The notes under the pieces are model-generated. The model was not told the DNA's origin. It did no database searches and saw only the letters and a program-made list of their open reading frames with translations. A DNA stretch of 33,345 bases from positions 1-33,345 of the forward strand of contig CABXVU010000015.1 in assembly GCA_902515775.1 (NCBI GenBank), written 5' to 3'. Positions within the stretch are counted from its first letter, which is position 1. Every line of letters begins with the position of its first letter. Positions 10,592 to 13,164 of this stretch are shown here, one piece after another. The position numbers were made by a program, and so were the translations under genes. The DNA is from an uncultured SAR86 cluster bacterium. Lineage in GTDB: Bacteria; Pseudomonadota; Gammaproteobacteria; Magnimaribacterales; D2472.

Positions 10592-11818
10592 ATGAACACA
10601 AAAGTCACACTACCGATTTATATGGATTATGCCTCTACAACACCTGTTGATCCAAGAGTTGCAAAAAAAATATCTGATCATTTAACTTTAGATGGTAATT
10701 TTGGAAATCCTGCTTCACGTTCGCATAAATTCGGCTGGAAGGCTGAGGAGTCTGTTGAGGAAGCAAGATCTCATGTCGCAAATTTAGTTGGCTGCGATCC
10801 AAGAGAAATAGTCTGGACTTCTGGTGCTACCGAGGCTGACAACCTAGCTATAAAAGGAATAGCTAATTTTTACCAATCTAAAGGTAAACATATCATTACT
10901 TCAAAGATAGAACACAAAGCAGTTTTAGATCCATGCAGACAATTAGAAAGAGATGGTTTTGAAGTTACTTACTTAGAACCAAACGAGGGTGGTCTTATAA
11001 CTGACGAAGCTATTTTGAATGCAATAAGAGAAGATACTATTTTGATTTCAATTATGCATATTAACAATGAACTAGGCACAATTAATGACTTGGAAAGCAT
11101 TGGAAAAATTGCTCGAGAAAAAGGAATATTCTTTCACGTAGACGCTGCACAGAGTACTGGCAAAGTACCAATTGACTTAACCACTCTGCCTGTAGATTTA
11201 ATGTCATTTTCAGCTCATAAAACATATGGGCCTAAGGGAGTGGGAGCATTATTTGTTCGAAGGAAGCCACGTGTAAGAATCGAAGCTCAAATCCATGGAG
11301 GTGGTCATGAAAGAGGTATGCGATCCGGCACTTTGGCTACTCACCAGATTGTTGGAATGGGGGAAGCATTTAGGATTGCAAAAGAGGAAATGGATAAGGA
11401 TATAAAAAAAGTACAGTCATTACATAACAAGTTTTATGATTCTGTTTCCAAGATTGAGGAAATCTATGTTAATGGCGATATGAATAATAAAGTTAGCAAC
11501 ATATTAAATATTAGCTTTGCATATGTTGAGGGAGAATCATTAATTATGGCTTTGAAAGACATTGCTGTATCCTCAGGATCGGCTTGCACCTCTGCAAGTT
11601 TGGAGCCATCCTATGTTCTTAGAGCGCTTGGAAGAAAAGATGAGCTTGCATCAAGCTCAATTCGTTTTTCTTTTGGAAGATTTACCACTGAAGAGGATGT
11701 AGATTATACATTATCTTTGATCAACCACGCTGTTGATAGGCTTAGAGAGCTATCTCCATTGTGGGAAATGTATCTTGATGGGGTTGATCTAGATACAGTT
11801 GAATGGCAAACCCATTAA
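10592..11818 (+). CDS. iscS: IscS, pyridoxal-phosphate cysteine desulfurase
   Basis: A 408-residue group I cysteine desulfurase (E. coli 404). The PLP lysine is Lys210 in [12 protein letters not shown]. The persulfide-bearing Cys332 lies on the mobile loop [21 protein letters not shown]. The C-terminus, [21 protein letters not shown], closely follows the E. coli IscU-binding tail. It delivers sulfur to IscU for cluster assembly and to tRNA thiolation. The iscU gene begins 16 bp downstream with a strong ribosome site. The enzyme looks complete. Confidence 0.98.
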
Positions 11819-11834: not shown

Positions 11835-12239
11835 ATGGCATATAGTAGAAAAGTAATTGATAAGTTCGAAAAAACACTTAATGAGCCTGAAAAATTCAAT
11901 GTAGGAAGGTTCGATCCTAAAGAAGCTAATGTAGGCACCGGAATGGTTGGCGCACCTGCATGCGGTGATGTTATGAAATTGCAAATAAAGTGCGAATCTA
12001 AAGGCAATACTCATGTTATTACAGATGTTAAATTCAAAACATATGGATGTGGTTCAGCTATTGCGTCGTCAAGTGAAATAGTTGATATGCTCATCGGCAA
12101 AACTCTTGAGGAAGCTAGAGAAATAAAGAATGTTGAAATTGCTGAGGCATTAGAGCTTCCTCCAATAAAAATTCATTGTTCTGTTTTAGCAGAAGATTCT
12201 ATTAGACAGGCAATAGATGACTTTGAGCAAAAGCAGTAG
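11835..12239 (+). CDS. iscU: IscU, iron-sulfur cluster scaffold
   Basis: Starting at 11835 gives 134 residues beginning MAYSRKVIDKFEK, as in other IscU. The three cluster cysteines are Cys43 (GAPACGD, with Asp45), Cys72 (YGCGS) and Cys115 (KIHCS). The LPPIK motif (108-112) is the form of LPPVK that the chaperone HscA recognises in E. coli, yet hscA is not next door. About six extra residues (in KTLNEPEKF, 13-21) lie between the first helix and NVGRFD compared with E. coli; this is the only notable departure. The gene lies between iscS and iscA (6 bp gap). Confidence 0.97.
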   Translation: MAYSRKVIDKFEKTLNEPEKFNVGRFDPKEANVGTGMVGAPACGDVMKLQIKCESKGNTHVITDVKFKTYGCGSAIASSSEIVDMLIGKTLEEAREIKNVEIAEALELPPIKIHCSVLAEDSIRQAIDDFEQKQ

Positions 12240-12245
12240 TTAAAT

Positions 12246-12638
12246 ATGGATAAATTTAAGCCCGAGCAACTTCAATTTTCCGATTTAGCGATTTCACACT
12301 TTTCTGGACTGCTCAAAAAAGAAAAAGTAAATCAATCCATCAGAATTGGTGTGAAGAAAGCCGGATGTTCAGGATATGAATATTTTTTTGAATACGAAGA
12401 AACCAATGCTAAGGATGATACAGTAATCAAGCATGATGACTGTACATTTTTAATTGATCCAAAAAGCTTTGAATTTCTTAAAGGTAGTAAAGTCGATTAT
12501 GAAGAAGACGGCTTCAACAAAGGTATTAAATTCCATAATCCAAATGTAACTTCAGTTTGTGGATGTGGGGAGAGTTTCACCGTGGATAGTGATAAAAACT
12601 TTAATTCTGAAGTTACTTCCCAAGTAAAAAAAAAATAA
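12246..12638 (+). CDS. iscA: IscA, A-type iron-sulfur carrier with C-terminal extension
   Basis: A 130-residue A-type carrier. The cysteines are Cys41 (KKAGCSGYEY), Cys105 and Cys107 (VCGCGESF), the standard set that holds iron or a cluster. E. coli IscA (107 residues) ends directly after CGCGESFHV. This one continues for 17 polar residues (114-130) ending SQVKKK, and also has a few extra residues at the N-terminus. The tail runs into a run of ten A's, and the stop TAA (12636-12638) sits right after it. The downstream ferredoxin frame continues from this point in the -1 frame without a usual start codon, so the true product may be an IscA-ferredoxin fusion of about 239 residues. Confidence 0.93.
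   Translation: MDKFKPEQLQFSDLAISHFSGLLKKEKVNQSIRIGVKKAGCSGYEYFFEYEETNAKDDTVIKHDDCTFLIDPKSFEFLKGSKVDYEEDGFNKGIKFHNPNVTSVCGCGESFTVDSDKNFNSEVTSQVKKK
12626..12635 (+). other. A10 homopolymer, candidate slippage/frameshift site joining iscA to fdx
   Basis: Ten consecutive A's end at the iscA stop codon. In the iscA frame they read (GT)A-AAA-AAA-AAA before TAA, which satisfies the A-AAA-AAA slippery heptamer. A -1 shift here leads straight into the ferredoxin frame (K-I-K-I-L-P-H). A single added A in the message or in the true genome would do the same. Whether this is programmed slippage, RNA-polymerase stuttering or a sequencing error cannot be settled from one sequence. Confidence 0.5.
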
Positions 12639-12964
12639 AAATTTTACCTCATGAAGAATTTTGTCCTGAGGGTACTATTATCGAGGCTCTTCCTGGCGAA
12701 AGTATTTTAGAGGCATGCCTAAGAAATAAGATCAAGATTGAGCATGCGTGTGAAATGTCTTGCGCATGTACAACATGCCATATCATTATTGAAGACGGTT
12801 TTAATAATTTAGAGGATGCCTCTGATGAGGAAGAGGATCAGCTTGATAAAGCATGGGGGCTTGAGCAAAATTCTAGATTAGGTTGTCAGGCATATCCTGT
12901 TGATGAGATGACAGTCATTAGAATTCCAAAATACACTATTAATCTGGTTTCCGAAGACCACTAA
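12626..12964 (+). CDS. fdx: Isc-type [2Fe-2S] ferredoxin, no canonical start codon
   Basis: The frame that ends at 12964 encodes an adrenodoxin-type ferredoxin aligning with E. coli Fdx along its length. It runs from KIKILPHEEFCPEG through EHACEMSCACTTCHIIIEDGF, DKAWGLEQNSRLGCQ to RIPKYTIN. All four ligand cysteines are present: HAC, CAC, TTC and LGC. The frame is open only back to 12611 (TGA at 12608-12610) and holds no ATG, GTG or TTG before ATG 12755. That ATG lies after the first ligand cysteine and cannot be the start. Options are a rare ATA (12635) or ATT (12641) start, neither with a ribosome site, or translation entering from iscA by a -1 shift in the A10 run. The start given marks the region homologous to the E. 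coli N-terminus. The stop overlaps the iscX start (TAATG). Confidence 0.85.
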   Translation, partial: KKKIKILPHEEFCPEGTIIEALPGESILEACLRNKIKIEHACEMSCACTTCHIIIEDGFNNLEDASDEEEDQLDKAWGLEQNSRLGCQAYPVDEMTVIRIPKYTINLVSEDH

Positions 12965-13164
12965 TGGAAATTAATTGGGCAGACATACAAGAAATCGCTA
13001 TAGAATTGTATGAAAACTTTCCAGAAATTGATCCCCAGTGGATAAGTTTTCCTGATTTGCATAAAAAAATATGCAATTTGGATCACTTCATTGGTGATCC
13101 CAATAGTTCAAATGAGAAAATTTTAGAAGCTATTCAAATGGCTTGGATAGATGAATTAGACTAA
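12964..13164 (+). CDS. iscX: IscX, small acidic iron-binding/regulatory protein of the Isc system
   Basis: A 66-residue acidic protein matching E. coli IscX over its whole length (WADIQEIAIELYENFPEIDP, then ICNLDHF and SNEKILEAIQMAWIDELD). IscX binds IscS and modulates its activity depending on iron. The ATG overlaps the fdx stop by one base, so it is probably read by coupling. It is the last gene of the operon; ndk follows after 36 bp with its own likely promoter element. Confidence 0.95.
   Translation: MEINWADIQEIAIELYENFPEIDPQWISFPDLHKKICNLDHFIGDPNSSNEKILEAIQMAWIDELD

Follow-up and report, generated by a model that had tools for sequence, protein, structure and literature searches.

Start-less ferredoxin frames behind stop-adjacent A-runs in the isc operon of SAR86 bacteria, and a putative IscA-ferredoxin fusion made by slippage

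The isc operon and its iscA-fdx junction

The isc operon described here lies in a stretch of 33,345 nucleotides from an uncultured SAR86 cluster bacterium (the window, meaning the whole stretch of DNA analysed; contig C15 of a 1.26 Mb genome in 36 contigs). The genes are arranged on the forward strand in the order iscS, iscU, an A-type carrier in the iscA position, fdx, and iscX; the gene behind them was named ndk from its translation, and ndk homologues stand behind the operon in most of the loci compared. The cysteine desulfurase gene iscS (10592..11818) scores above the cut-offs of NF010611 and TIGR02006, and the best family of the scaffold gene iscU (11835..12239) is TIGR01999 iscU, with 174.1 bits, below the cut-off of 192.4. 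The iscX gene (12964..13164; TIGR03412, 95.8 bits, cut-off 40.4) begins with an ATG that overlaps the fdx stop as TAATG (12962-12966), an ordinary coupling right behind a gene that lacks a canonical start.

The gene in the iscA position (12246..12638) encodes 130 amino acids and ends in QVKKK-TAA. An initial annotation of this DNA had called it IscA; its product passes TIGR00049 (107.5 bits, cut-off 58.8) and matches PF01521, but misses the IscA, SufA, and ErpA equivalog cut-offs (e.g., TIGR02011, 93.1 bits against 150.6), so that the name holds in the wider sense of an A-type carrier in the iscA position, and iscA is used below in that sense. As annotated, the protein carries 17 residues beyond SFTV, a polar tail or linker (12585..12635) that is absent from ordinary SAR86 IscA; ordinary relatives end at SFT or at most two residues past it.

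The 3' end of iscA reads GT-A10-TAA. The A10 run (12626..12635) presents the heptamer A_AAA_AAA in the iscA frame, belongs to a 23-nt conserved block, and is directly followed by the iscA stop TAA (12636..12638). The fdx frame (12611..12964, forward strand) is in the -1 phase relative to iscA, opens after a TGA (12608-12610), and closes with a TAA (12962-12964). It encodes a complete Isc [2Fe-2S] ferredoxin (TIGR02007 fdx_isc, 158.3 bits, cut-off 132.1), and from its opening to the EHACE motif it contains no ATG, GTG, or TTG; the first in-frame ATG is at 12755, beyond the first ligand cysteine. The coordinates, the phase, and the completeness of the ferredoxin had all been given correctly in the initial annotation, which offered three explanations: a slip that fuses IscA to Fdx into a protein of about 239 residues, a rare ATA or ATT start codon, or a miscounted homopolymer.

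No genome among the 203 of the order reaches the HscA cut-off; weaker matches in 198 of them are taken to be other Hsp70 proteins, and the order as a whole seems to lack the ISC chaperone. That iscA and fdx are adjacent would be explained by a loss of hscBA. At 12 loci (L077-L081, L083, L085, L086, L089, L091, L092, and L096) the order is iscU, fdx, A-type carrier, with fdx immediately following iscU.

The junction in other SAR86 genomes

A pattern scan of the 203 genomes for the run and the ferredoxin start matched 22 genomes in three of 22 genera, and the reversed control pattern matched one. Matches were found in 18 of the 26 genomes of the window's genus: five have A10 with fdx out of frame (the window included), two have A11 and a single open reading frame, and 11 have an iscA stop followed by an fdx with an ATG. 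Named genomes were scanned as well (the best 80 of 195 loci were read), which added the complete chromosome CP097968.1 (G195), with A10 and an out-of-frame fdx. No fdx match was found in five g22 and two g6 genomes.

Twenty-five junctions were inspected, leaving aside L001, which repeats the window, and L151, at a contig edge. Eighteen are start-less and in the -1 phase, three are fused in frame, one is start-less in the +1 phase, and three have an ATG for fdx that overlaps the iscA end; most other SAR86 loci inspected have an iscA stop and then an fdx with an ATG. The 18 start-less -1 junctions come from three genera in two families, and as their genomes are related they are not 18 independent events. 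Counting the A's in aligned relatives, as the initial annotation had suggested, gave A10 in 15 of these loci and A9 in three. Runs of A9 to A11 are present in 22/22 loci that are either start-less or fused in frame, and in 18/18 start-less -1 loci the iscA stop is TAA, 0-2 nt past the run.

That the homopolymer was simply miscounted is refuted by 18 genomes that share this out-of-frame state, a complete chromosome among them. Homopolymers are error-prone in some technologies, and an assembly error may exist in G183 (about 70 contigs, 64% complete), which has the only start-less +1-phase locus and whose phase is possibly wrong; as an account of the junction itself, however, assembly error is rejected and given practically no weight. 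It was also proposed that relatives with a clear ATG for fdx would speak against slippage. Such relatives exist, but they lie outside the clade of A-run copies except for three genomes inside it, in which the ATG overlaps the end of iscA (L146 in G196, L145 in G193, and L147 in G191). Their position suggests that the start was regained in these genomes, and they imply that a fusion is not indispensable.

In all 18 start-less -1 loci, no ATG, GTG, or TTG is found at or before codon -33 of fdx, which codes for the I of ILPH. The fdx frame of G192 does not open until the run itself, since the first base of the run is the last base of a TGA, and this makes initiation upstream in the fdx frame impossible. 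An in-frame TTG at codon -32 in four of the 18 loci counts against slippage. An fdx that initiates by itself at a rare AUA or AUU, through termination and reinitiation at the iscA stop, is improbable on the whole. In the window an ATA does overlap the TAA, ATA or ATT is present at codon -33 in 18/18 start-less loci, and iscX of the same operon uses TAATG; but the codon corresponding to the stop-overlapping ATA is TTA or CTA in eight of the 18, and initiation two codons further on, at the conserved codon -33, would cut the first ferredoxin strand. A rare start would also leave the conserved run, the linker, and the three in-frame fusions unexplained. Of the original explanations this one is weakened and the slip-made fusion is favoured.

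The in-frame loci have runs of A11, A11, and A10 and encode single IscA-Fdx proteins of 239 (G015), 238 (G012), and about 236 amino acids (G088, from coordinates), matching the fusion length predicted for the window. A fusion is therefore viable, as three genomes encode it directly. Among the matches listed for 369 Gammaproteobacteria, no single open reading frame spanned IscA and Fdx; in G100, also of SAR86, both domains are covered with a TAG between them. The presence of both A10 and A11 among sister species might point to phase variation, in which the run gains or loses A's in the DNA and cells switch between split and fused forms. This is very improbable, as it would turn off what seems to be the sole Isc ferredoxin.

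Constraint, probable transfer, and a second junction

The start-less ferredoxin is under purifying selection. In pairs of start-less fdx genes dN/dS is 0.017-0.083 in 13 of 14 cases and undefined in one, with several dS values near saturation, and the four cysteines are kept in the Fdx of 25/25 loci; this selection argues that the protein must be made. No other short complete Fer2 protein was found in eight genomes searched, only some of which are complete. Six of the eight have a second Fer2 match inside an open reading frame of 407-438 aa, probably NqrF judging by length alone; in G020 the second match is a fragment inside a frame of 104 aa that lies at the end of a contig; G000, the genome of the window (78% complete), has none.

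Conservation at the junction extends to nucleotides. The 23-nt block A10-TAAAAATTTTACC is identical in 9/9 g1/g6 loci (seven out of frame and two in frame) and is the longest identical block in 345 bases, the next being 8 nt. Among the Fdx codons of g1/g6 that are invariant as amino acids, 17 of 77 are invariant as nucleotides and 60 vary. In g22 the run is kept, with a variable 3' edge that in every case leaves a TAA; the junction blocks there are 8 and 7 nt, and the longest identical block, of 9 nt, is elsewhere, which counts against slippage. Of 30 occurrences of KKK in 415 kb of G000, 6 are written AAAAAAAAA (AAA-AAA-AAA), as are 12 of 49 in 400 kb of G195. Lysine columns elsewhere are also sometimes invariant in codon (all AAA in two of seven invariant K columns in g1/g6 and in one of three in g22), and K-codon invariance alone is weak evidence.

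Long A-runs are scarce in these genomes. Compared with synonymous shuffles, open reading frames contain two runs of at least ten A's where 10.9 are expected (G000) and three where 12.8 are expected (G195), and the iscA run is one of these in each genome. The number of A9 runs is close to that expected (17 against 22.8 in G000, 26 against 27.8 in G195) and that of A8 runs is higher than expected (101 against 68.8, and 105 against 84), so the scarcity starts only at ten, a further point against slippage. Start-less frames behind runs are themselves rare: in G195, 2 of 242 A-run/frame pairs (runs of at least eight inside long frames) and 0 of 93 pairs at T-runs of at least eight show the arrangement. 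In the 415 kb of G000, 2 of 100 A-run pairs and 0 of 38 T-run pairs fit, the window being one of the two. A general tolerance of frame breaks at A-runs, as in endosymbionts, is not supported by the G195 counts. A weak candidate for another slip junction was seen at L190:12773 (contig C19 of G000), where an A8 run stands just ahead of a stop and is followed by a start-less frame of 84 codons.

The history of iscA and fdx appears to differ from that of their neighbours. In a tree of IscA and Fdx, the A-run copies of the two families are joined with a local support of 0.992, and the three loci that seem to have regained an ATG are placed within this clade. In a tree of IscS, IscU, and Ndk (96 loci), every copy stays with its own genus. 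Within g6, the neighbouring genes of G090 and G091 group with those of G087 and G089 (support 1.0), which have the ordinary junction, and their iscA-fdx groups with that of the window's genus. The trees were built without 16 loci, most of which repeat another locus and which include L018-L020 (partial or short g1), and without L093, L098, and L099. From these comparisons of sequences, iscA-fdx seems to have recombined as a block and moved between genera. Shared fast evolution may be an alternative cause of the IscA and Fdx grouping, and several of the tree supports are low.

A second junction of this type is found in the TMED112 genus, where a beta-propeller gene (phytase-like, by eye) is followed across an A-run by a gene with a VTT domain (PF09335, DedA-like). 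In the complete chromosome CP097968.1 the run is at L197:9059-9068 on the minus strand, with homologues at L231-L244. The DedA-like gene is present in 16 of 21 TMED112 genomes, and 14 of these 16 loci were examined (L245 and L246 missed the motif): the run is A9 in ten and A10 in four, and in 14/14 no ATG, GTG, or TTG precedes the NPxxAP motif in the DedA frame. The phase is -1, with a stop 3-24 nt past the run, in 13/13 resolved loci (L232 gave no phase). Thirteen of 19 distant homologues were also examined, and after L257-L259, which showed a wrong frame, ten from other genera were left; all ten have an ATG near the expected start, and at 29-40% identity they are possibly not true orthologues. 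This separate junction, again start-less and -1 at A9 or A10, counts in favour of slippage and makes a case for a device rather than a one-off accident. A wider and tentative proposal is that stop-adjacent A9-A10 slip junctions are a recurrent fusion device of SAR86, present in at least two unrelated gene pairs that lost the downstream start and would be expressed through programmed slippage. The iscA-fdx version may have passed from genus to genus by recombination, as a cassette that would set the ratio of IscA to IscA-Fdx.

Proposed slippage, the fusion protein, and known recoding systems

We favour, with modest confidence, recoding at the A-run, mainly by slippage of RNA polymerase, as the source of both IscA and an IscA-Fdx fusion that would serve as the Isc ferredoxin. 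Under this model fdx would have no initiation site of its own and would be expressed as the C-terminal half of the fusion. Transcription of the A10 run would produce mRNAs with a variable number of A's: the templated A10 mRNA would yield IscA alone, terminating at the TAA right past the run, and an mRNA with one extra A, or two fewer, would yield the fusion. The polar linker, A-run, stop, and first ferredoxin strand would thus make up a co-inherited recoding cassette. We infer the slip, the polymerase as its main site, and the existence of both products.

Several features are those expected of transcriptional slippage: every start-less run is at least 9 nt long and is placed at the frame junction, and both the run and the overlapping frames are conserved. 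From a length of nine, a large proportion of genomes show clear selection against slippage (PMC1088944), and slippage on long poly(A) yields 12-50% corrected transcripts in AT-rich endosymbionts (PMC5009743). By eye, A_AAA_AAG is absent from the upstream frame at every start-less run; in E. coli this heptamer is much shiftier than A_AAA_AAA (PMC5009743). Run lengths that never fall below nine, together with the unused A_AAA_AAG, favour the polymerase over the ribosome.

A programmed -1 ribosomal frameshift on A_AAA_AAA beside the iscA stop would give the same fusion from an unaltered mRNA, and is possible but rather unlikely. The slippery heptamer is in the iscA frame with a -1 frame downstream, as such a shift would have it; of the 19 fdx loci that are start-less and out of frame, 18 are in the -1 phase, and so are all 13 resolved DedA loci. 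A nearly constant -1 phase fits polymerase and ribosome alike, because one added A gives the same result; as a ribosomal shift also predicts it, the 18 to one distribution weighs against the polymerase, but the +1-phase locus of G183, if real, could not be served by a -1 ribosomal shift. Seven A's would suffice for the ribosome, and yet the runs are always of at least nine.

Seven downstream stretches, folded from differing start points, gave z values of -0.67 to -2.25, two of them below -2; inspection by eye showed one stem in both the window and its sister L003 and otherwise no common fold. Nothing like a Shine-Dalgarno motif was seen by eye upstream of the iscA runs. GGAGG, an element that can stimulate ribosomal shifting, lies upstream of two DedA junctions, including that of the complete genome. 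ARAGORN lists a single tRNA-Lys (UUU) for G195, which would suit a ribosomal shift; the tRNA-Lys of E. coli is likewise UUU. The list, made on stretches of G195 (L153-L172 and L193-L223), is incomplete, for it has no tRNA-Cys, and tRNAs across stretch borders may be missed.

For the slippage product, a predicted model of the natural in-frame fusion of L005 (mean pLDDT 71.2, pTM 0.47, from an 18-row alignment) resembles E. coli-type Fdx (1i7h) and IscA/SufA (1x0g, 2d2a). Confidence is low at residues 106-126 (the linker), 167-176, and 232-239. The first ferredoxin strand is modelled at residues 129-133 and begins in residues encoded by the run. In mitochondria, two [2Fe-2S] clusters on ISCA1-ISCA2 are coupled with electrons supplied by the ferredoxin FDX2 (PMC9313013). 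By analogy, Fdx tethered to a fraction of IscA chains would place an electron donor on the carrier, IscA alone could occupy the remaining seats of the oligomer, and the tethered donor may help the reductive coupling of [2Fe-2S] to [4Fe-4S] clusters.

In the surface ocean, SAR86 ranks among the most abundant groups of bacteria (PMC11582366). If the model is correct, a conserved recoding event operates in a core housekeeping operon, and slippage makes a two-domain protein from two ancient genes. Sister species with split, slip-joined, and in-frame forms would then offer a natural experiment on the evolution of gene fusion, and the tethering of ferredoxin to carrier as an aid to [4Fe-4S] assembly becomes testable. 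Gene callers that depend on start codons are likely to miss or truncate fdx here. No report of an IscA-ferredoxin slip fusion was found among the titles and abstract openings retrieved, a search outside which most subscription papers lie, and the main text of a frame-transition survey of 1106 prokaryotic genomes (PMC3711429) contains neither "ferredoxin" nor "IscA".

The SAR86 junction resembles known systems in different respects. Like dnaX of Thermus thermophilus, which slips on nine A's, it has an A-run, two products per locus (putative in SAR86), and nearby stops in the shifted frames (PMC1088944, PMC5009743); in Thermus, however, the long product is encoded in frame, whereas in SAR86 the long product would mostly need the slip, which would join two genes that are separate in relatives. 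The poly(A) genes of Buchnera and Blochmannia likewise belong to AT-rich reduced genomes in which breaks at A-runs are rescued by slippage (PMC3017870, PMC5009743). Those are interrupted single genes of host-bound symbionts, whereas SAR86 keeps a stop-adjacent gene junction across marine genera, with few others in the complete genome. In Shigella mxiE and IS elements the longer product requires slippage (PMC1088944), as is proposed for SAR86, but the SAR86 junction is in a housekeeping Fe-S operon, with no mobile element seen in it. With the -1 ribosomal frameshifting of E. coli dnaX and magnesium chelatase it shares an A_AAA_AAR-type site and the direction of the shift (PMC5009743); it differs in the absence of A_AAA_AAG, the longer runs, and the fact that no common downstream structure was seen. 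The ordinary SAR86 isc operon encodes the same proteins in mostly the same gene order, but in it fdx has its own ATG and the iscA stop comes shortly past SFT.
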